Of a stretch of 64,000 nt of DNA, positions 840-37,076 are shown one piece after another. Source of the DNA: Halobaculum limi (GTDB lineage: Archaea; Halobacteriota; Halobacteria; Halobacteriales; Haloferacaceae); contig NZ_CP120468.1 in the NCBI RefSeq assembly GCF_029490015.1, positions 1,426,001 through 1,490,000 on the forward strand, written 5' to 3'. How positions within the stretch are numbered: position 1 is the stretch's first letter; each line of letters starts with the position of its first letter. The translations under genes were made by a program, and so were the position numbers. Under the pieces are notes generated by a model. The model saw only the letters and a program-made list of their open reading frames with translations, made no database searches and was not told the DNA's origin.

Positions 840-1685
840 GTGCAGGTCGTGGGCTACGAAACGCCGGCGGGCGCGTTGTTCGTCAGCGACGCCGACCCCG
901 CGACCGATGCCCCGCCCGGGACGCCAACCGGCGACGTCGACCGAATCGCCCTCGACCCCGGAACCGACCTCTCGTGGCGCCTCGGCGAGCGACGCTGTGC
1001 CGGGACGGTCCACGAGGGCGGCCACGTCGTCTGCGACGCCGACGACGCGCCCTACTGCGACGACCACCGCTCGACGTGGGTGTGTGCGCGGTGTACTGGG
1101 ACGTGTCTGAAAGACGAGATGGACTGCTTCGACGACCACGCCATCTACCTCGCGGCGTTCGCGCCGGACACGTTCAAGGTGGGCGTCACCAGAGAGTGGC
1201 GATTGGAGACGCGCCTGCGCGAACAGGGCGCCGACCGCGCGGTCCACCTCCGCACCGTCGACGACGGCCGCATCGCCCGTGAGATCGAGTCGGGGATCGC
1301 CGCGAACGGCCTCGACCGACACAGCGACGAGCCCACCGCGGTCGCCCGTCCCGACACCGATGGAATCCCCGACCGCGTACGGGTGCCGACGAAGGTCGCG
1401 GGCCTCGCAGCCACCGTCGACGAAGCCGCGTGGGACCGCCTCCTCGACGGCGTCGACTACGAGGCCTCCTTCTCGTTCGACTACGACCTCGACCTCAGCG
1501 AACGCCCGGTGGCCGAGACGCTCGCCTCGGGGACCGTCGTCGGGACGAAAGGGCGGATCCTCACGGTGGAGAACGCGGGGACGACGTACGCGGTCGATAT
1601 GCGTGACCTCGTCGGCTACGAACTCCTCGACGGCGACGACGGCGAGGGGCGCGACCTCCAGTCGAGTCTCGGTGCGTTCGGCTGA
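840..1685 (+). CDS. DUF2797 family zinc-cluster protein
   Basis: A 281-residue protein that matches the haloarchaeal DUF2797 family; its biochemical role is unknown. A Cys/His-rich block at about residues 53-96 (Cys 53, 65, 73, 82, 85, 89, 96 and His 76) suggests one or two structural zinc sites. The reading frame is open further upstream, to 708, but the conserved family start resembles VQVVGYETPAG. GTG at 840 is therefore preferred over the longer form, whose first 44 residues are low in acidic residues and look non-coding. It is followed by the transducer operon after an 85-bp gap, so it probably has its own promoter. Confidence 0.8.
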   Translation: MQVVGYETPAGALFVSDADPATDAPPGTPTGDVDRIALDPGTDLSWRLGERRCAGTVHEGGHVVCDADDAPYCDDHRSTWVCARCTGTCLKDEMDCFDDHAIYLAAFAPDTFKVGVTREWRLETRLREQGADRAVHLRTVDDGRIAREIESGIAANGLDRHSDEPTAVARPDTDGIPDRVRVPTKVAGLAATVDEAAWDRLLDGVDYEASFSFDYDLDLSERPVAETLASGTVVGTKGRILTVENAGTTYAVDMRDLVGYELLDGDDGEGRDLQSSLGAFG

Positions 1686-1770
1686 CCCGTCTGTCGCTTC
1701 ACCGGATCCAATCGTGATACTCACGACCGGGAGTTGATACGTTGCGACTGTGTTTGCATCGGCAGATACG

Positions 1771-3342
1771 ATGGTACAGTTCATACGCCGGAGTTTCGCC
1801 GTGAAACTCGTGATCGGGTTCGTGGTGACGGCCGGCGCAGTCGTCGCGTACGGCCTCCTCACGCGCAACGTCGTCGGGACGATACTGATGTCGACCGCCG
1901 GGCAGGTGGTGCTCGGCGCGTACCTCGGCACGAATATCGTCGTCTCGATGCGAACGCTCGAGACACAGACGGAAGCGATCGCGGACGGCGACTTGGACGT
2001 CCGCGTCAGGACCTCGCGCGAAGACGAACTCGGGCGGGTGTACAGTGCCGTCGACCGGATGCGCGGGTCGCTCTCCGAGCGGATCAGGGAAGCACAGACG
2101 GCACAGGAGGAAGCGGAGGTCGCCGAAGAGCGTGCTCAGTCGCTCGCGAGCGACTACCAGCAGGTCGCGAGCGACTACGCGTCGACGATCCGGTCGGTGG
2201 CCGACGGCGACCTCACCGTCCGCGTCGACGTCGACCACGACCACGAGGCGATGGAGACCGTCGGCGAAGAGTTCAACGCCGCGGTGGACGAACTGGAGGC
2301 GACGCTCGCCAGGGTCGACACGTTTGCGACGGACGTCGCGGACGGCGCGGCCGACGTTCGGTCCGCCGCCGAACAGATCGACGACCGGACGGACGACGTG
2401 ATCGAGGCGACCGACGAGATCGACGCAGACACCGACGAACAGCGTGCTCGCACGCGGGCCGGTGCCGACGAGGTCGGTGACCTGTCCTCGACGGCCGAGG
2501 AGATCGCGGTGACCACGGACGACCTCGTGGACACGACCGACGACGCGGCGGTGGCCTCCGAGGAAGCACGCGAGGCGGCCGACGACGCTATCGACACGAT
2601 GGACGACGTCGAGGAGACGATGACGGAGGCGGTCGAGCGGATCGACGCTCTCGACGACGCGACGGCGGAGATCACCGAGGCGGCCGAACTCATCCGCGAC
2701 ATCGCAGCGCAGACCGATATGCTGGCGCTCAACGCCTCTATCGAGGCGGCCCGCGCCGGTGAGGGGGGCACCGAGGGCGACGGCTTCGCCGTCGTCGCCG
2801 AGGAGGTGAAAGGCCTTGCAGAGGAGACCGGCAATCGCGCGGATGCGATCGCCGAGATGATCGCAGAAGTGCGCACCGAGACCGAGCGAGCGGCCGAGTC
2901 GATCCGGACCACCAACGAACAGGTCGGCGAGGGGGCGACGACCGTCGCGGCGGCGGTCGACCGCCTCGACGAGATCGTCGACTACGTCGAAGACATCGAC
3001 CACGGTGTTCGCGAGATCAGCAAGACGACGAGCGAACAGGCTGAGTCGGCCTCGACGGCCGCGCAGACGCTCGACGACCTGGCGGAGATCAGCGACCGGA
3101 CGGCCGACCGAACCGCAGAGGCGGCCGACGCCGCCGCAGAACAGTCGACCGCCGTCGACGCCGTCGTCGCCGAGTCGGAGGCGTTCCGCGAGCGGTCGAC
3201 AGCGTTGACGGACGTCCTCGCCGACTTCTCAATCCGCGAGGGTGCCGGTGACCGGCACTCGACTGCGGCACCCGACGCCGGTGGCAGTCGCCCCGCAGTG
3301 AGCGACGGCGGCGCCGCCGTCCACGACGGGGGTGATCGCTGA
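1771..3342 (+). CDS. Halobacterial transducer (MCP) partner of the sensory rhodopsin, HtrI-like
   Basis: Membrane signal transducer, 523 residues. Two transmembrane helices (about 13-30 and 34-55) are joined by a loop of only a few residues, so there is no extracellular ligand domain; this is the layout of H. salinarum HtrI. A HAMP domain follows (about 55-105), then a second HAMP-like segment ([17 protein letters not shown], about 145-161), and a long Asp/Glu-rich coiled coil. The conserved hairpin tip is at about 308-350 ([12 protein letters not shown]...). It should pass light-induced changes in the rhodopsin to CheA/CheW. The stop codon overlaps the rhodopsin start by one base (TGATG), giving strict translational pairing. 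ATG 1771 aligns with the start of HtrI; a GTG at 1750 in frame is possible but less likely. Confidence 0.93.
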
Positions 3343-4097
3343 TGGTGGCGCCTGGAACGGTCGTGTACGCGCTCGGAACCGTCGCGATGCTCGTCGGTGT
3401 GGCCGTCGTCGTCCACCTCCTCGGCAACGACGACCTCGACGCCGGCGCCGGTCGATTCCGCCTCTTGCTCGCGATCCCCGCGTTCGCGGCGCTGTCGTAC
3501 GCCGCGATGGCCGCCGGGATCGGCCAGTTCTCCGTAGGTGGGTACACCGTCGACACGATGCGGTACGTCGACTGGTTCGTGACCACGCCCGTCCTCGTCG
3601 CCTACGTCGGGCACGTCGTCGACGTCGACAGACGGTGGCTCGTCGGCGCGGCGGGCGCCGACGCGGTGATGATCGCTGCTGGCTGGGTCGCGACGACGAC
3701 CACCGGAGTGACTCGCTGGACCGGATTCGCTGTCTCCTGTGTGGCGTTTCTGGCGCTGTTGTACGTCTTGTTCCGCGTGTTTCCACGGAAGGCACAGACC
3801 GACACGCCGGAACGCCGTCGGCTGTTCTTCCGTCTGCGCAACCAGATCGGGATCCTCTGGATGCTGTACCCGGTCATCTGGCTTGCGAGTCCGGTCGGCT
3901 TCGGCCTCGTCTCGACGCTCGGAACGGCGATGCTGGTGACGTTCATGGACGTGGCCGCGAAGGTGCCGTACACGTGGGTCGTCTACGAACACCGGGGTAT
4001 CTTCGGCCGGACGGACGCGGCGGCGACCGGAACCGACGGAGAGAACGGCGACGTTCGACCGGTGGGCGACGACGGGCCCGCACCAGTGGCCGATTGA
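3342..4097 (+). CDS. Sensory rhodopsin, type I-like
   Basis: Seven-helix retinal photoreceptor, 251 residues. Helix C reads RYVDWFVTTP with counter-ion Asp77, and Tyr88 takes the place of the bacteriorhodopsin proton donor Asp96, as in known SRI. Helix G carries the Schiff-base lysine Lys207 in DVAAKVPY. Helices D-F also resemble SRI more than SRII (for example ADAVMIAAG and LASPVGFG). The SRI-specific His166 is replaced by Gln168 (RLRNQIGILW), which is unusual. The C-terminal tail (about 225-251) is acidic and Gly-rich. It is translationally coupled to the transducer gene upstream. An alternative is a middle-rhodopsin-like receptor; absorption colour cannot be read from the sequence with certainty. 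Confidence 0.93.
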   Translation: MVAPGTVVYALGTVAMLVGVAVVVHLLGNDDLDAGAGRFRLLLAIPAFAALSYAAMAAGIGQFSVGGYTVDTMRYVDWFVTTPVLVAYVGHVVDVDRRWLVGAAGADAVMIAAGWVATTTTGVTRWTGFAVSCVAFLALLYVLFRVFPRKAQTDTPERRRLFFRLRNQIGILWMLYPVIWLASPVGFGLVSTLGTAMLVTFMDVAAKVPYTWVVYEHRGIFGRTDAAATGTDGENGDVRPVGDDGPAPVAD

Positions 4098-4202
4098 CTC
4101 GACCGGCGACCTCTGCCGACAGTTTACTACTCGAGGCAGTGCTATCGAGCAATTAGCCCGGGGGGTACCCGTTGCGTCTGTGCTGTGGCTCTCGTTTTGT
4201 GG

Positions 4203-5939
4203 TCACGTACTCCCCGACCATTCCGCGTCCGAGAGCGTGCGTTGGACGGCTTCCTCGCCGACGGCGGCCGCGAGTTCTTCGAACCCTTGTCTAACCGCGC
4301 GGTCGGAGGCGTTCGCCACCAGTCGCGAGACGATGAACTCCGGCGTCGACTTGCCGATGACGCCGAAGCGAGGCTGGTAGTCGACGAGCAGATCTAGGTC
4401 GTTCGTCAGGCCCTCCGCGAAGATGCCGTCGATGCGGGCCACGTCCGGGAGCGGCGAGAGGTCCTCCGCGAGGTGGGTGACGTACACGCCGACTGCGCCA
4501 CGGTCGACGGTCAGTTCCACGAGGCCGTTGAGCAGGTCCGCCGCCCGACCCGGTTCTGTGATGGCCTCGAATTCGTCGACGAGCATCAGCGTGCGTCCCT
4601 CGCCCACCAGCGGTGGGACGACCGACTTCAGCGTCGACTCCAGCACCCCCGCGTTGAACGAGGCGTGCCGGCGGTGGAAGACGACGGTGTCGAATCGCCC
4701 GACCTCGGCGGCCTCGGCGGGCACCGGCAGGCCCATCGACGCGAGGATGACCACCTGACATACCGTCTCCAACAGCGTCGTCTTCCCGCCGGAGTTGGCC
4801 CCAGTCAACACCGCCACGCGGTTGCCCGTCGGTGCGTCGCCGTCCAGCGAGTGGTCGCCGACGGCGTAGGTGACGGGTTGCACGTCGCCCGAGAGAAAGA
4901 GGTTGCGCGCACCCCTGACGGCGACGCCTGTCGCGTCTAGATCGGGCCGAGTGAGGTCGTGTTCGACGGCGAACCGCGCAAGCGAGAGGAGGAAGGCGAT
5001 GTCGCCGACGGCGTCGACGACGCGTTCCACGTCGACGCCGCCGGCTTCGACGTCGGCCTCGAGATCAGCGCGTACCTGGTCGGCGCGGTCGGCCGCCTCC
5101 GTCTCTAACTCGTCGGCGAGCGTCCGTAGCGTCGACCCGACGAAGTCCGCGGAGTCGACGGCACCGTCGGGCGCGGCCGACTGGACCCGTCCGCGCGTGA
5201 GATCCGTCTCGCCCGCGACGTACTCGACGACCGCCGACTGGAACGCGTCGGCGTCGCGTGCGCCACGCTCGCGCACCGTCTCGACCACGTCGTACGCGGA
5301 GTCCGCGAGTGCGCGGGCGTCTGCGGCCTGTTCGCGCAGGCGGTCGAGTCTGTCGTCGACGCCCGCGGCGACGCCGTCGTCCGTGAGCGCCGCGAGGGCG
5401 TCGGCCGCCTCCCGAAGTGCGCCCTCGTCGACGCCGTCGAGAGCGGCGAAGGTGCCACCACGTAGGCCCGCCGCTCGGAGCGCGAGCGCGCACTCGAGCG
5501 CCGCGCGGTCGGTGCCGCCGGCGTCGTCGTACTCGTCGAATGCCTCGACGACGGCTTCACGATCAGACTCGTCCAGTCCGGCCCACGCGTCGCGCGCCTC
5601 CAACACGTCGTCCAGTCGCTGTCGGCGGCGGTCGTCGCTCGTGAGCGGCGTGAGCACGCGCACGCGGTCGGCGGCGTGAGCGGTGACGGCGTACTCGGCG
5701 GCGATGTCGAGCAACTCGTCGTACACCTCACGAGCGTCACGGGTACCGAACAGATCCATCCCCGCTTTCCCGTACGCTCGGCGGAGCACGCGAGTCGCCC
5801 GGCCGCGCGGCACGCCGCCCTCGACGAGCGTTCGCACGTCCGCCGACTCGATGGCGGCGATGGCCGCCTCCTCGCCGAGCGAATCGCGGAGCGTCTCGGC
5901 CGTCTTGGGCCCGACGCCCCAGTACTGCTCCAGTCGCAT
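4203..5939 (-). CDS. MutS-family ATPase with N-terminal helix-hairpin-helix (MutS5-like)
   Basis: 578-residue protein with the ATPase domain of the MutS family: Walker A GANSGGKTT at 380-388, Walker B LMLVDEF at 451-457, and a conserved helix with THLAEDL. It lacks the MutS mismatch-recognition domain I and the C-terminal Smr nuclease of MutS2. The N-terminus (about 1-50, YWGVGPKTAETL) looks like a helix-hairpin-helix DNA-binding region, followed by a long alpha-helical lever-like region (about 100-320). Haloarchaeal homologues are usually named MutS5 or MutS2-like. A recombination or DNA-structure role is more likely than canonical mismatch repair. It converges with the rhodopsin operon. Confidence 0.85.
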   Translation of the reverse strand: MRLEQYWGVGPKTAETLRDSLGEEAAIAAIESADVRTLVEGGVPRGRATRVLRRAYGKAGMDLFGTRDAREVYDELLDIAAEYAVTAHAADRVRVLTPLTSDDRRRQRLDDVLEARDAWAGLDESDREAVVEAFDEYDDAGGTDRAALECALALRAAGLRGGTFAALDGVDEGALREAADALAALTDDGVAAGVDDRLDRLREQAADARALADSAYDVVETVRERGARDADAFQSAVVEYVAGETDLTRGRVQSAAPDGAVDSADFVGSTLRTLADELETEAADRADQVRADLEADVEAGGVDVERVVDAVGDIAFLLSLARFAVEHDLTRPDLDATGVAVRGARNLFLSGDVQPVTYAVGDHSLDGDAPTGNRVAVLTGANSGGKTTLLETVCQVVILASMGLPVPAEAAEVGRFDTVVFHRRHASFNAGVLESTLKSVVPPLVGEGRTLMLVDEFEAITEPGRAADLLNGLVELTVDRGAVGVYVTHLAEDLSPLPDVARIDGIFAEGLTNDLDLLVDYQPRFGVIGKSTPEFIVSRLVANASDRAVRQGFEELAAAVGEEAVQRTLSDAEWSGST

Positions 5940-6046
5940 ACCCGTGGCTGTGGCCGGAGGGGTGTAGATGGTACCGGTCGCAGTCGGCGGCGGTGCGGTC
6001 GCTGGGAGCGCAGTCTACGCACGACGCTCGCGAGTGTGTCGGGCGA

Positions 6047-6361
6047 TCAGTGGACGGGCGGTTCGGTCGCGTCCGCATTGTCGGTCGACTCAGTCGCTCG
6101 CTCGGTGGGCGGTTCGTCACCTGTCGGTGTCGCAGCATCGGCCGTCATCATCTCGTCGGTCGCTACCGCCGTCGCCAGCAGTTCGCTGAGCAGCAACACC
6201 GCTGCCTCGTGGTCGTCGCGCGACGCCTGCAGCGACATCGGCGTGAGTTCCAGCGAGCGGTACGCTGCGAGGTCGTCGTCGTCCACGGTACCAGTCTCGA
6301 TCAAGCGGTCGGCGAGCATCCGCAACAACCCGTGGAGATGGATCAGTTCGTTCTTCCGCAT
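6047..6361 (-). CDS. UPF0058 family protein
   Basis: 104-residue protein starting MRKNELIHLHGLLRMLADRL, the signature of the archaeal UPF0058 family. It is a small, mostly helical cytosolic protein of unknown role. The C-terminal 35 residues are Thr/Asp/Glu/Pro-rich and probably disordered. The open frame extends well upstream, but Arg-rich composition there marks it as non-coding, so ATG 6361 is the start. It is followed by the MutS-like gene on the same strand after about 107 bp. Confidence 0.8.
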   Translation of the reverse strand: MRKNELIHLHGLLRMLADRLIETGTVDDDDLAAYRSLELTPMSLQASRDDHEAAVLLLSELLATAVATDEMMTADAATPTGDEPPTERATESTDNADATEPPVH

Positions 6362-6477
6362 CTGTCGACAGACGTAGGTGCTCGAACGGGCTAAATCCCG
6401 CGCTGGATGGAGTGTAACAGGCGGATAACCGGATAGCACGGACAACTGGAGCGCGAATCGAACGCCGGCGACAGTGA

Positions 6478-6882
6478 TCAGACGCCGGACGTCGACCCGT
6501 TCTCTGCGCGGTCCCGGTAGACGCGCAGCAACTCTTCGAGGATCATCCCCGAGCGGTCGGTCGTCTCGTAGTTCTCGTCGATGAACTGTTCGGCCTCCGC
6601 GAAGTCGTTGCGGAGTCCGAGTTGCCGGACCGTGATGACGGCATTGAGGAAGTCGCGACCGCCGTCCGCTCCGAGTAACACCGGTTCCTCCTGTAAGTCG
6701 AGTTCGTCGCGGATCTCGCCGTAGTTGAACGTCTCGGGTTCCCACTCGTCGCTCACGAGTGCGAGGACGTACTCCGCCGAAAAGCGGTAGAACTCGGATT
6801 TACTCTCGAAGACCCCGTCTTCGACGAGCGTATCGATCTCGTCGACGACTTCGTCGGGATACCGGACCGTGTCTTTAGCCAT
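6478..6882 (-). CDS. Ribbon-helix-helix (CopG/MetJ-type) DNA-binding protein
   Basis: 134 residues. The N-terminal 45 residues fit a ribbon-helix-helix domain: a short strand (MAKDTVRYPDEVVDEIDTLV) followed by FESKSEFYRFSAEYVLALV. The rest is acidic and helical and may mediate dimerization or sensing. The start is fixed at ATG 6882 because GGAGG lies 8 nt upstream (complement of 6891-6895); the in-frame GTG at 6900 lies upstream of that site. It is divergent from the MFS gene at 7102. It may regulate that gene or itself, but no operator is evident. Confidence 0.78.
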   Translation of the reverse strand: MAKDTVRYPDEVVDEIDTLVEDGVFESKSEFYRFSAEYVLALVSDEWEPETFNYGEIRDELDLQEEPVLLGADGGRDFLNAVITVRQLGLRNDFAEAEQFIDENYETTDRSGMILEELLRVYRDRAENGSTSGV

Positions 6883-6890
6883 TCCGAGTT

Positions 6891-6895
6891 CCTCC
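6891..6895 (-). promoter_or_regulatory. Shine-Dalgarno site of the RHH gene
   Basis: GGAGG on the minus strand ends 8 nt before ATG 6882. It decides the start of the ribbon-helix-helix gene and implies a leadered transcript, unlike many genes of this window. Confidence 0.6.
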
Positions 6896-7101
6896 TTCAC
6901 TGAATTCGTTGGAATGGACCGTATAGAGTCTTTTGGTTACCTCAGCGACGTGACGTGTGTAAACGCTAGCGATACGCCTCCTATCGCGCTATTTTCGCGT
7001 TTGATACGTGAGTACGACATTCAACACGGCTCGGACGTGGTGGCACGCCGAACTCGCCCGGAACCGCACCGTTCAGGTGCGCCGCCTGCACAGCGAGGGT
7101 C

Positions 7102-29407: not shown

Positions 29408-29797
29408 TTACAGGAGGCTCCCGCCGAGGACGATGACGGAGAGGTTGTTGGCGAACACGAACAGTCCCGACGCGACGAGCAGTCCGAGCCACGTCTCGAT
29501 GACGACGCCGTAGTAGGGACGAGCGTGCGCCGGCGTCACCCGGTACGTCTCGATGAGGCCGTAGAACACGACGACCGCGATGACCGTCGCCGCGAGGTTC
29601 ATCGCGACGAGGACGGACACTGGCTGGCCGAGCGCCCACCGGACCACCGGGTTCGACTCGTACTGAATCCCGACGAGCGCCGCCGCGTACATCGTCGTGA
29701 GCAGGTCGACCGTGATGAGCAGAAACAGCGCGACGGCCGCCCAACTCCAGTACTCCTGCACCCGGTCGGTGATAGCGGCGTCGCGCAACTGTGTCAC
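29408..29797 (-). CDS. Small integral membrane protein (DUF5658-like)
   Basis: 129 residues with three to four hydrophobic helices (about 17-40, 55-78 and 95-125). The segment LLITVDLLTTMYAAALVGIQYESNPVVRW resembles small haloarchaeal membrane proteins of the DUF5658 type, where a helix is followed by an E-x-NP motif. The GTG start at 29797 precedes a short hydrophilic N-terminus. It lies upstream of the helicase on the same strand with 83 bp between them. Function unknown. Confidence 0.7.
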   Translation of the reverse strand: MTQLRDAAITDRVQEYWSWAAVALFLLITVDLLTTMYAAALVGIQYESNPVVRWALGQPVSVLVAMNLAATVIAVVVFYGLIETYRVTPAHARPYYGVVIETWLGLLVASGLFVFANNLSVIVLGGSLL

Positions 29798-29859
29798 GAT
29801 TCGCTCGGCGGGGAGTGAGTATCTAAGACTAACGGCGCGACTATCGTCGGCGAAACTCG

Positions 29860-30525
29860 CTACCCGCCGTCGTCCCCGACTGCCTCGACGAGCGACCGAG
29901 CCTCGCCTTGCGCGTCCGGGTGGGGGGCGAACGACCGCGTGTGCGTCACGTCTGCGTCGACGGCGGCGTCGACGACCGCCGCCAGCGACTCGGTCGGGTA
30001 CGCCGCGCCCGCCAGCAGGAAGGTGTCGCGCCACGGTCGGATCGCCGCCAGTACTTCCACCGGGAGCAGCAGCGTCCCACCCGTCGCCTCCTCGATCACG
30101 GCCGCCGCGTCGACTGGGTATCGGGCCGTTATCTCGAACAGCCGTCCCTCGACGTCGCCGGCGTCGTACCGTCGGGTTGGTCCGGCGTCGACATCGCGCA
30201 AGCCGGACTCGCGCAAGTCGGCGAGGAACTCCCGACACGCCTGATTCGCCGCGAAGCCGACGACCGACGCGGGCGACACCGGTGCGCGTTCAAAGCCGGG
30301 ACGGAAGTGACACCGCGTGACGAAGAACGCCCGCGCGGCGCGGTCCGCCGCCGTCGACGGCACGGCCGCCGCGACGCTCGGGTCGTCGTAAAACTGCGTC
30401 CGCACGGCGACGGTGACGAACGGGGAGTCGAACCCGACTTCCGTCTCGTCACCGGCGAACTCGTAGCCCGCAGCGGCGAGGGCGGCGTCGGGGACCGGCG
30501 GCGCGGGAACCGATCTGTCGCTCAC
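29860..30525 (-). CDS. Hypothetical protein, paralogue of the gene at 22105-22701
   Basis: 221-residue soluble protein with short Pro/Ala-rich ends. A central motif set matches the 198-residue protein at 22105-22701: AFFVTRCHFRP, GFAANQACREFLADLRESG, and FLLAGAAYPTES. The spacing is similar, so this is an old duplication in one family. No catalytic or metal motif was recognised. It sits on the same strand as the membrane protein downstream of it. Function unknown. Confidence 0.7.
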   Translation of the reverse strand: MSDRSVPAPPVPDAALAAAGYEFAGDETEVGFDSPFVTVAVRTQFYDDPSVAAAVPSTAADRAARAFFVTRCHFRPGFERAPVSPASVVGFAANQACREFLADLRESGLRDVDAGPTRRYDAGDVEGRLFEITARYPVDAAAVIEEATGGTLLLPVEVLAAIRPWRDTFLLAGAAYPTESLAAVVDAAVDADVTHTRSFAPHPDAQGEARSLVEAVGDDGG

Positions 30526-30566: not shown

Positions 30567-31937
30567 TTACGGCCCCCGGCCCACCCAGACGCTGTCGGTC
30601 GACGTGTTGCCGTCGGCAGAGGCGGTCGCACTCGCCGGCACCGCCGTCCCGGTTCCCGTCTCCACGGTCGCTCGCCCGGTGCGACCGTCACGGCGGTCCG
30701 CGGCGGCCGCGACCGCGGCGGCGGGGTCGACGCGGCCGTCCTCGGCGGTCGTTCGGAGCAGTTGTTCGACTTCTGCAGGCGTGAGCGTATCGTCCCCTGC
30801 TTCGGCGGTCATCGCGATGACGACGCTCGCGACACGAGGGGCGGCGGCAGACGTGCCTCGCAGCAGCGTTCCATCGTCGAGGCGAACGGTTCCGTCCGCG
30901 CGAACGTCCGTGTCTGCGGGGGAGTACTCCGCGAGTCGACCGTTCGACCCAACTGCACCCACGGAGATGACTCCCGGTGCGGCCGTGGGTGCGATGGCGC
31001 TCCCGTTGGCCCCGGCGAATGCGAGGCGATGCCGGGCGGCGTACAGGTCGACGGGGCCGGTTCCGGGGTCGCGTGCGTACACGGCGACGTAGTAGTTGCC
31101 GCGGGGAAGCACCGCGTCGATGGCCTCGGCGTAACCGGATTCGCGCGTCGACTTCGCCACGAGCGTGTCTTCACCGGGCGTGTCACGGTAGAGGTACAGG
31201 TCGTAGTCGGCCGCGTCCTCCCAGTACAGTCGGAGGGTGACGGTTCCGTCGATGGTGCCGTTTCCGAGGCGGTTCCCCTGCGTACCGTCGTCGCCGAAGG
31301 CGACCCAGCCCCCGTTGGCCGCCGTGCCGCGCCAGTGTCGTTTGGCGGTGTTGCCGCCGGAGGTGACGAACACCGTCCCCGAGGTGGCGGCGCGTTCGGC
31401 CGCTTCGGCGATGCGCTCGCGCCCGTCGGCAGTCCGCGGGAAGTAACTCCCGGCGTCGACGATGACGTCGACGTCTTGGGCGACCAGCCACTCGACGGCG
31501 CGGGCGTACTCGTCGGGTGTCGGCTCGTAGCCGACCGACGCGAGATACAGCGAGGAGTCACGGGCGCGTTCGGCGACGACGCTCGCGACTGCGGTGTCGT
31601 GCTTACCGGCGACGAGGCCGAATCGCGGCGAGGTCGTCCGGTAGCGGTCGGCGACACGACCGTCCAGCGTCGCGGAGTCGGCGAACGCACTCCCGATGAC
31701 GCCGACGCGAACGGCGTCGTCAGTTCCGCTGGGCGCGGCCGGGTCGATAGCTGGCACGTCGGCGTCGTCGTCGACGCCACCCGAAACCGGCGGGCCGAGT
31801 GGGCCAGAACCGGACACCTTCCGCGGGGTCGCGTCACCGTACCCGTTCGTGACGCTGGTCACGTCCGCACCGACGAGGCCAGCGCCGACGCTGGTGACGA
31901 GGAGGATCACCACGAGAACCACGGGCGAACGGCTCAC
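30567..31937 (-). CDS. Degenerate subtilase-fold protein with inserted beta-sandwich domain
   Basis: 456 residues. The N-terminal hydrophobic helix (about 4-24) is a signal or membrane anchor. The subtilase fold follows, with His113 (GKHDTAVASVV), Asn196 (VTSGGNTA) and Ser363 (GTSAAAPRVA) in place. The catalytic Asp position reads VGVIGSAF (Gly82), so the standard triad is incomplete. Between Asn and Ser lies an insert (about 203-305, LRLYWEDAADYDLYLYR, NYYVAVYAR) like the pre-peptidase C-terminal beta-sandwich. The tail (about 420-456) is Thr/Ala-rich. The GTG start lies 4 bp after the stop of the membrane winged-helix gene, so the two are co-transcribed. It may be a pseudoprotease or binding protein. 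Confidence 0.8.
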   Translation of the reverse strand: MSRSPVVLVVILLVTSVGAGLVGADVTSVTNGYGDATPRKVSGSGPLGPPVSGGVDDDADVPAIDPAAPSGTDDAVRVGVIGSAFADSATLDGRVADRYRTTSPRFGLVAGKHDTAVASVVAERARDSSLYLASVGYEPTPDEYARAVEWLVAQDVDVIVDAGSYFPRTADGRERIAEAAERAATSGTVFVTSGGNTAKRHWRGTAANGGWVAFGDDGTQGNRLGNGTIDGTVTLRLYWEDAADYDLYLYRDTPGEDTLVAKSTRESGYAEAIDAVLPRGNYYVAVYARDPGTGPVDLYAARHRLAFAGANGSAIAPTAAPGVISVGAVGSNGRLAEYSPADTDVRADGTVRLDDGTLLRGTSAAAPRVASVVIAMTAEAGDDTLTPAEVEQLLRTTAEDGRVDPAAAVAAAADRRDGRTGRATVETGTGTAVPASATASADGNTSTDSVWVGRGP

Positions 31938-31941
31938 GGCA

Positions 31942-32766
31942 CTACCGCTCGCGAAGGCGGCCGACGGCGATGACGGTCGCGAGAACGAGCAGGCCGCCCG
32001 CGAAGAACGCCGCGCCCGGCGGGAGCGCACCCAGCGCCGCTCCGCCGGTCGCGCCGACGGCGTCACCGATACGCGGGGCCGTCTCCGGCCCCGACAGCGT
32101 CGCCACGTCCGCGCCGAACAGCGCCTGCACGAGGAGACTCGCGCCCGCGAGCACCGCGAGTGCGCCGAGGAAGCCGCCCAGCGAGTCGGTCAGCGACGAC
32201 CGGTCGGACTCGCCGCCGACGGCGACCACCACGCGGTCGTCGGTCGGGCCGTAGACGGTCATCTCACGGCCCTTTACCGAATACCGGGTGTCGACCGTCT
32301 CGACGAGGCCGGCGTCGACTAGTTTGGAGACGTGGTGGCGCACGTTCTGCACGGACGTGTCGGCGGCGTCGGCCAGTTCCGACGCCGTGTGTGGCTCCTC
32401 GTGGACCGCGGTGAGGATTCGTCGAGCGGTCTCGGGTGCGAGCGCACCGATGAGGTCGTCGGCGCCGTCGTCGTCGAGCCAACAGACGCGGACCTGCTGA
32501 TCGGGTTCAGTCGGAGTACCGTCCTCGGGGTCTGCGGCAGCCTCACTCGCTGCTCCGGCGCTGGCGGTCGTCTCGGTTCGTTCCGTCTCGTCGGCCGCGT
32601 CTGTGGTCGCGTCCTCGGGCAACGAGACGGGGGTGGACGCGTCGGACCCGGTAGCGGCCCCGCCGTCTGCGCGGGGTTCGCTGGCGTCGCCATCGCTGGC
32701 GTCGTCGCCGTCGGCCCCCTCGGCGTCCGTCGAGTCGTCCGGACTCGACGGGAGCGTCCCAGACAT
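31942..32766 (-). CDS. Membrane-anchored winged-helix transcription regulator
   Basis: 274 residues in three parts. Residues 1-90 are a Glu/Asp/Ser/Thr/Ala-rich disordered region. Residues about 95-180 form an ArsR/MarR-type winged helix (PETARRILTAVHEEPHTASEL, NVRHHVSKLVDAGLVE, MTVYGPTDDR). Two transmembrane helices follow (about 196-216 and 250-269), with a 33-residue extracellular loop and a short Arg-rich cytoplasmic end. DNA binding would therefore occur at the membrane. The gene is the first of a two-gene operon with the degenerate subtilase. Start ATG 32766. It is likely to sense an envelope signal, which is inference from the architecture. Confidence 0.8.
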   Translation of the reverse strand: MSGTLPSSPDDSTDAEGADGDDASDGDASEPRADGGAATGSDASTPVSLPEDATTDAADETERTETTASAGAASEAAADPEDGTPTEPDQQVRVCWLDDDGADDLIGALAPETARRILTAVHEEPHTASELADAADTSVQNVRHHVSKLVDAGLVETVDTRYSVKGREMTVYGPTDDRVVVAVGGESDRSSLTDSLGGFLGALAVLAGASLLVQALFGADVATLSGPETAPRIGDAVGATGGAALGALPPGAAFFAGGLLVLATVIAVGRLRER

Positions 32767-32790
32767 ACGGTCCAATATAAGATACACGAC

Positions 32791-32800
32791 CAAAACGTTT
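32791..32800. promoter_or_regulatory. Palindromic operator-like site upstream of the membrane regulator
   Basis: AAACGTTT (32793-32800) is a perfect 8-bp palindrome 27-34 bp upstream of ATG 32766, near where a TATA box or BRE would be expected. A TTATATT stretch at 32774-32780 lies closer to the start. The site could serve autoregulation; there is no direct evidence. Confidence 0.3.
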
Positions 32801-32906
32801 CGGTCGGTTTGGGTGACGGATCGCTGGGAACACAGCGATTCGACTCCAGGATCTGTCACCGTATCTCGCTTAGCCACGAGAACCAGTCAGTCGACTCGAG
32901 TATCTC

Positions 32907-36662: not shown

Positions 36663-37076
36663 TCAGTCGTCCTCTAACGCCTGTGCGATCCGCTGAAGCT
36701 GTCGGGTCGCGTCGCGAACCTCGTCGCGGAGTTGTCGGACCTCGCGCACGAGTTCCTCGTTGCCAGCCGACTCTTCTTCGCGGGCGCCGGGGCCGCCCAT
36801 CCCGCCGGGGCCGCCGCCCATCCCGCCGGGGCCGCCGCCACCGCCCATCATCCCGCCCATCATCTGCGCGAAGGGGTTGCCGCCGCCCATCCCGCCGGGG
36901 CCGCCGCCACCGCCCATCATCTCCTCGGGAGAGGGTGCGCCGCCTTCTCCCTCTTCGCGCTCTTGCTCTCGTCGCTCGCGGATCTCTTCGACTCGCTCGC
37001 GGAAGGACTTCTCTTCCCCATCGTCGCCAGCGCTCTCCTCGGCGTCGGTTCCGGAATCCTCAGGGTCGTCTGCCAT
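36663..37076 (-). CDS. Gly/Met-rich low-complexity protein with coiled-coil end
   Basis: 137 residues. Residues about 1-45 are acidic with a predicted coiled coil (FRERVEEIRERREQEREE). The middle (about 50-97) is a Gly/Met/Pro repeat (MMGGGGGPGGMGGG, twice or more). The C-terminus (about 105-137) is a second helix (LVREVRQLRDEVRDATRQL). The arrangement suggests a small oligomeric or phase-forming protein; no catalytic motif is seen. It diverges from the CRTAC1 gene at 37166 with 89 bp between. Function unknown. Confidence 0.7.
   Translation of the reverse strand: MADDPEDSGTDAEESAGDDGEEKSFRERVEEIRERREQEREEGEGGAPSPEEMMGGGGGPGGMGGGNPFAQMMGGMMGGGGGPGGMGGGPGGMGGPGAREEESAGNEELVREVRQLRDEVRDATRQLQRIAQALEDD

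Follow-up and report, generated by a model that had tools for sequence, protein, structure and literature searches.

A two-gene pair of Halobaculum limi, encoding a membrane-anchored winged-helix regulator and a predicted exported protein of subtilase fold, points to an undescribed outside-to-gene signalling route in salt-loving archaea. The pair lies in the window, the whole 64,000-nucleotide stretch of DNA that was analysed (Table 1). The adjacency of the two genes is not due to chance, because the same pairing was found at 103 of 116 homologous loci, and the pair is an old, conserved and co-inherited unit of the class Halobacteria. We propose that it forms an envelope-to-DNA signalling module of haloarchaea in which the subtilase acts on an outer loop of the regulator, probably with a relocated catalytic acid, and we give this proposal an even chance of being correct. 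One-component transmembrane signalling in archaea is little known, and the class-wide presence of the two-gene system, including in Haloarcula hispanica, makes the question testable.

Table 1. Features of the regulator-subtilase pair, in window coordinates
Feature	Position	Strand	Details or basis
Near-palindrome GACCGAAACGTTTTGGTC (18 bp) over BRE/TATA-like element	32788..32805	-	22-39 nt upstream of ATG
Regulator gene (HTH-TM)	31942..32766	-	274 aa from ATG; HTH_20 and HVO_1552_C
Winged-helix domain, residues about 97-174	32245..32478	-	AlphaFold2 pLDDT >90
TM helix 1, residues 199-217	32116..32172	-	hydrophobicity; AlphaFold2
Predicted extracytoplasmic loop, residues 218-250 (33 residues)	32017..32115	-	topology prediction
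PRIGD loop motif, residues 231-235	32062..32076	-	loop comparison
TM helix 2, residues 251-269, followed by Arg-rich cytoplasmic tail	31960..32016	-	hydrophobicity; AlphaFold2
Subtilase-fold gene, predicted exported product	30567..31937	-	456 aa, GTG start
N-terminal hydrophobic export signal or anchor, residues 1-25	31863..31937	-	sequence
Gly82 codon (subtilisin Asp32 position)	31692..31694	-	sequence, family alignment
His113-Asp114, catalytic His and first candidate substitute acid	31596..31601	-	family alignment
Asp161 (VIVDAGSY), second candidate substitute acid	31455..31457	-	family alignment
Asn196, oxyanion-hole Asn	31350..31352	-	family alignment
Jelly-roll/PPC-like β-sandwich insert, about residues 206-305	31023..31322	-	AlphaFold2, Foldseek, insert profile
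Ser363, nucleophile, in GTSAAAP	30849..30851	-	family alignment

Layout and conservation of the gene pair

The regulator gene ends with a TAG stop codon (31942-31944), and a 4-bp gap (31938-31941) separates it from the GTG of the subtilase gene. A first-pass annotation of this DNA had reported this spacing, a winged helix followed by two transmembrane (TM) helices in the regulator, and a β-sandwich insert in the subtilase. The spacing agreed with the ORF coordinates, the regulator architecture was borne out by Pfam, AlphaFold2 and hydrophobicity, and the insert appeared in the AlphaFold2 model. The numbering it had given for Gly82, His113, Asn196 and Ser363 was exact, as these residues lie in VGVIGS, KHDTAVA, SGGN and GTSAAAP, respectively. 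It had placed the pair at 30567-32800; the lower end holds, whereas the upper end was loose, with the regulator gene starting at 32766.

To describe the distribution of the pair, we searched 391 genomes of the class Halobacteria with a profile built from 22 relatives. It matched in 136 genomes, and 116 subtilase loci were read; because sampling relied on a family A profile, the counts describe relatives of this protein rather than all subtilases. The regulator gene lies upstream of the subtilase gene in 59 loci, including that of the window (family A), and downstream in 44 (family B). At these 103 loci the two genes always share a strand and, with few exceptions, are immediate neighbours. Phylogenetic analysis resolved the families as separate clades (family A, 58 rows, SH-aLRT 96; family B, 45 rows, SH-aLRT 100). 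Twelve of the 13 loci without a regulator formed a third group, mostly of long multidomain subtilases, and the remaining one was a family B member. Divergence of the HTH ran in parallel with that of the subtilase (r 0.85 and 0.88), which matches the expectation for co-inheritance. Conserved pairing, on which the first-pass annotation had staked its reading, was thus upheld across haloarchaea in two gene orders.

The family A subtilase was absent from two of ten sampled congeneric relatives (G003 and G008). On pHH400, Haloarcula hispanica carries a family B pair made up of an S8 peptidase (HAH_RS18460) and a helix-turn-helix protein (HAH_RS18465). At one of the 59 family A loci (L086, G026:C12:18000-35000), only the C-terminal part of the subtilase is open, about 3.2 kb from an intact regulator, and an insertion or rearrangement is the likely cause. 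At locus L261 (G184:C1:788000-797200), a family B subtilase (4014-5324) has Gly in place of the Asp and stands without a detectable adjacent regulator; it is possibly a decaying copy that has lost its partner. Directly before the family B pair of L090, a 1953-aa ORF (1188-7046) gave several weak matches to the subtilase profile.

The regulator and its predicted outer loop

The regulator has an acidic, disordered N-terminus, followed by the winged helix and a C-terminal HVO_1552_C-type part. Pfam matched HTH_20 (E 1.8e-15, above cut-off) and HVO_1552_C (E 9.7e-9; 35.8 bits against a cut-off of 27), which places the protein in the HVO_1552 family (PF24267). Its recognition helix, TSVQNVRHHV, is common to the paired regulators and slightly altered in unpaired relatives. 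TM helix 1 starts about 25 residues past the wing, and neither Pfam nor the model of the window regulator gave a HAMP or cytoplasmic sensory domain between the HTH and the membrane. AlphaFold2 placed the winged helix at residues 99-174 with high confidence, and its helices 186-218 and 250-273, predicted with lower confidence, correspond to the TM pair. Hydrophobicity and charge suggest that both ends of the regulator are probably cytoplasmic.

We compared the loop between the TM helices (loop peptide GPETAPRIGDAVG) across the surveyed regulators. Family A loops are compact (23-37 residues) and carry a PR[VIM]xD-type (PRxxD) motif in 54 of 58 cases, with the four exceptions being the close variants TRIPD, TRVPD, VRVGQ and VRSPD. 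Only two of 44 family B regulators have the motif, and this family carries another conserved loop. The survey also gave 25 unpaired HVO_1552 paralogues, whose loops are 32-132 residues long and of low complexity and in no case contain PRxxD. The motif is thus found only in paired regulators while the recognition helix is, with small changes, common to all groups. Contact between the loop and the subtilase is the most straightforward explanation, although conservation of the loop could instead serve dimerisation.

In SREBP, a TM hairpin likewise displays a short loop on the outside. The predicted layout of the window regulator, with a DNA-binding domain, a TM hairpin and a short outer loop, resembles that of SREBP. 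Here, too, a predicted exported S8 subtilase might cut the loop, in the position of the site-1 protease (S1P) of SREBP (PMC11231238). The regulators of the two systems are without homology, however, and the conserved loop motif is PR[VIM]xD rather than the RxxL/RxxK site of S1P. Compared with S1P, the window subtilase also lacks the Asp and a C-terminal TM anchor.

With a DNA-binding domain, TM helices and a conserved, predicted exported partner encoded next door (103/116 loci), the pair also resembles the co-component regulators ToxR/ToxS, TcpP/TcpH and VtrA/VtrC, which share the cytoplasmic winged helix, the membrane anchor and the adjacent exported partner (PMC10269533). Those systems come from bacteria and have periplasmic sensory domains, and their partners are often lipocalin-like, whereas the window pair has an archaeal HTH_20-type helix, two TM helices, a short loop and a subtilase partner. 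An archaeal HTH with two C-terminal TM helices is common to the HVO_1552 family and to ArnR/ArnR1, which in 2019 were presented as the first membrane-bound regulators from archaea to undergo biochemical study (PMC6396743). ArnR has a HAMP and a cytoplasmic sensory domain (PMC6396743), whereas the window regulator has neither. In the other HVO_1552-type paralogues examined, by contrast, the loops are long and of low complexity, and no partner subtilase came into view. The window genome contains a second HVO_1552_C regulator above cut-off (G000:C1:329537-330022, + strand), with no adjacent match to a family A or B subtilase.

The subtilase active site and possible modes of action

The second protein of the pair matched Peptidase_S8 (PF00082) at 2e-12, above cut-off. 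In the AlphaFold2 model, the core has pLDDT values mostly above 90, and jelly-roll strands at about 221-300 fall between Asn196 and Ser363; PPC, a β-sandwich family, reached only 0.42 on this insert in Pfam. Foldseek searches with the model matched subtilisins and Csp proteins (E 1e-9 to 7e-14). The best full-length PDB matches were 4i0w, 9pr8, 9pr9 and 6mw4, with CspB (4i0w) at the top and C. difficile CspA and CspC chains among them, and the engineered anion-triggered subtilisins 3f49, 3bgo and 6ube were also among the matches. A phmmer search of the single subtilase against the PDB gave no match, whereas the profile and model searches did. The insert profile matched the jelly-roll domain of Tk-SP from Thermococcus kodakarensis (E 1.8e-7 for that segment), although Tk-SP has this domain at its C-terminus, whereas in the window subtilase it separates the Asn half from the Ser half. 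In a viral fold library, the top matches were ordinary viral subtilases only. An N-terminal hydrophobic segment is present in 43 of 58 family A and 38 of 44 family B subtilases. Pfam found no propeptide family on the window subtilase, and residues 1-71 are mostly of low confidence in the model.

In the Csp subtilases of clostridia, a jelly roll likewise interrupts the protease domain (PMC3567191), and two of these proteins, the pseudoproteases CspC and CspA, act in germinant signalling (PMC6636752). The Csp proteins retain a prodomain, whereas none was found in the window subtilase, and they have no membrane regulator. At its catalytic positions CspC has G485, T170 and D105, having lost Ser and His and kept Asp (PMC6636752). 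The window subtilase shows the reverse, a loss of Asp only, and not the loss of two of the three catalytic residues seen in CspC and CspA.

Within family A, position 82 is Gly in 45 of 58 proteins, with all four GGN codons in use, and Asp in 13. In family B, where the subtilase stands beside the same type of regulator, Asp82 is kept in 42 of 44 rows. Losses of Asp82 outside family A are scattered (A, T, S, V or G), whereas within family A the substitute is always Gly. His113, Asn196 and Ser363 are invariant wherever readable, including in all 45 Gly82 proteins of family A. The window protein therefore has the profile, fold, His, Ser and Asn of an S8 peptidase and differs from it at the Asp32 position.

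Two candidate acids lie elsewhere in the protein. Asp114 follows the catalytic His in 37 of the 45 Gly82 proteins, with the other eight being Gly82/Gly114. In every Asp82 protein the residue after His is Gly (Asp114 in 0/65), including L078, which is nested within the Gly82 clade. This mutual exclusion of Asp82 and Asp114 is suggestive; it rests on few independent events, with a tree minimum of two changes at position 82 and about five at 114 within family A, too few for an independent-pairs test to reach significance. Asp161 is invariant in family A (58/58 rows) and absent from family B and unpaired rows. It lies in VxVD(A/S)GSY, where Tk-SP has VINLSLG, and adjoins the Ser125 equivalent. In sedolisins (S53), which belong to the same clan, the acid sits away from the Asp32 site. 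Four relatives from bacterial MAGs (L157, L160, L166 and L168) have an S53-like active site within an S8-like, jelly-roll-insert protein family, with Ser82, Glu113 and VDD at 161-162. Because Asp at 161 thus recurs in a second lineage without Asp82, a relocated acid appears more likely than plain decay. With its candidate acids at other sites, a clade that kept His, Asn and Ser but has Gly in place of Asp would amount to a natural experiment in catalytic triad rewiring.

We infer topology, physical contact, residual activity and gene control in the proposed module as follows. The winged helix would be held at the cytoplasmic side by the two-helix hairpin, which would display the short conserved loop outside, and the co-encoded jelly-roll subtilase would act on this loop by cutting or holding. 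Loop cutting could free or destabilise the DNA-binding part, and extracellular events would then change transcription, possibly including that from the pair's own promoter. In the window lineage, in which Gly replaced the Asp32 equivalent, the role of the acid would probably fall to Asp161 and/or Asp114, making the subtilase a slow or conditional protease, probably not simply a dead one. The same-strand pairing in two clades of opposite order, the restriction of the compact PRxxD loop to paired regulators, the invariant His, Asn and Ser, the presence of Asp114 only with Gly82 and the constancy of Asp161 all argue for this module. Site-2 proteases (M50) in the window genome add weakly to it, as they occur in all 14 control genomes too. 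The eight Gly82 proteins without Asp114, the few events behind the exclusion and the missing propeptide family, unlike in most active subtilases, speak against it. A narrower version seems doubtful to us, namely that this lineage, with its acid at Asp161 and/or after His, serves a membrane-hairpin transcription factor as its dedicated site-1-like protease; if true, it would be an archaeal convergent counterpart of SREBP/S1P signalling.

The first-pass annotation had read the pair as an envelope-sensing system of no described form, built on a dead protease. Sensing of the envelope gains genomic support from the conserved pairing, from a loop motif found only with a partner and from the CspC receptor precedent, but the dead protease was not established. 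Such a protein, lacking activity through Gly82, would bind a ligand or protein outside and switch the anchored regulator, like ToxS with ToxR or CspC in germination. The loss of Asp in most of family A, the pseudoproteases CspC and CspA with their jelly-roll insert among the nearest folds (PMC6636752), the missing propeptide and the known co-component partners of membrane-anchored regulators (PMC10269533) are all consistent with it. However, His, Asn and Ser are retained throughout, whereas CspC lost Ser and His; alternative acids are present; and paired relatives with a full triad (13 in family A, 42 in family B) suggest that the triad was intact in the early pair. We regard a pseudoprotease as possible but improbable; a protease whose acid has moved or is conditional seems to us somewhat more likely. 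As for novelty, the open-licence literature yielded no paper on either HVO_1552 or a haloarchaeal pair of subtilase and regulator, but the shape of the pair parallels ToxR/ToxS co-component pairs (PMC10269533) and SREBP with site-1 protease.

Haloarchaea live in molar chloride. Nitrite or azide restores activity to engineered D32G subtilisin, and formate and chloride do so weakly, chloride even at 10 mM (PMC7935941), so Gly82 alone is not proof of a dead enzyme, least of all in such a habitat. By this analogy, acid relocation or anion dependence is plausible. The engineered D32G/D32A subtilisins (PMC7935941; 3bgo, 3f49, 6ube) lost the same residue, with Gly inserted and His and Ser retained; they are artificial, whereas the window clade is natural and has Asp161 and mostly Asp114. 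An environmental anion such as chloride, formate or nitrite might fill the Gly82 cavity, with the pair sensing ionic conditions, and the eight Gly82/Gly114 proteins would suit this idea. Since Asp114 of most members could itself occupy the cavity, and Asp161 is present in all, we consider an anion trigger very unlikely. It is also unlikely, if less so, that the regulator merely controls its neighbour in an autoregulated operon, with the subtilase being a general exported protease or adhesin and no signalling through the loop. Adjacent regulators are common for proteases, and the operon promoter with its near-palindrome is conserved in the genus, but this account leaves the membrane anchoring and the pair-restricted loop motif unexplained, and pairing has been maintained in two gene orders across the class.

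Promoter and genomic neighbourhood

Most family A loci have a BRE/TATA-like element some 22-39 nt upstream of the ATG, a spacing like that of leaderless transcripts. The near-palindrome GACCGAAACGTTTTGGTC is present in most of the window's genus, and a genome search allowing up to two mismatches found only the operon's own site. It is possibly an autoregulatory operator of a leaderless operon, and its symmetry may also be accidental.

Many family A loci share a syntenic block of an MFS transporter, the pair, a DUF5658-like protein and a helicase-like gene, so the pair looks inherited as a unit by vertical descent. As a functional clue, these neighbours gave no lead. In the window, the DUF5658-like neighbour is a membrane protein with a sub-threshold DUF5658 match (29408-29860, - strand), and at least 20 of 57 family A loci have it as a syntenic neighbour of the pair. 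Between it and the subtilase gene lies a 221-aa ORF (29860-30525, - strand) with no match in Pfam or in related loci, which is either specific to the window genome or spurious. Further along, a 137-aa protein (36663-37076, - strand), also encoded in several loci of the genus, has a long stretch rich in Gly, Met and Pro, GGGGGPGGMGGG, flanked by charged and coiled-coil-like ends.
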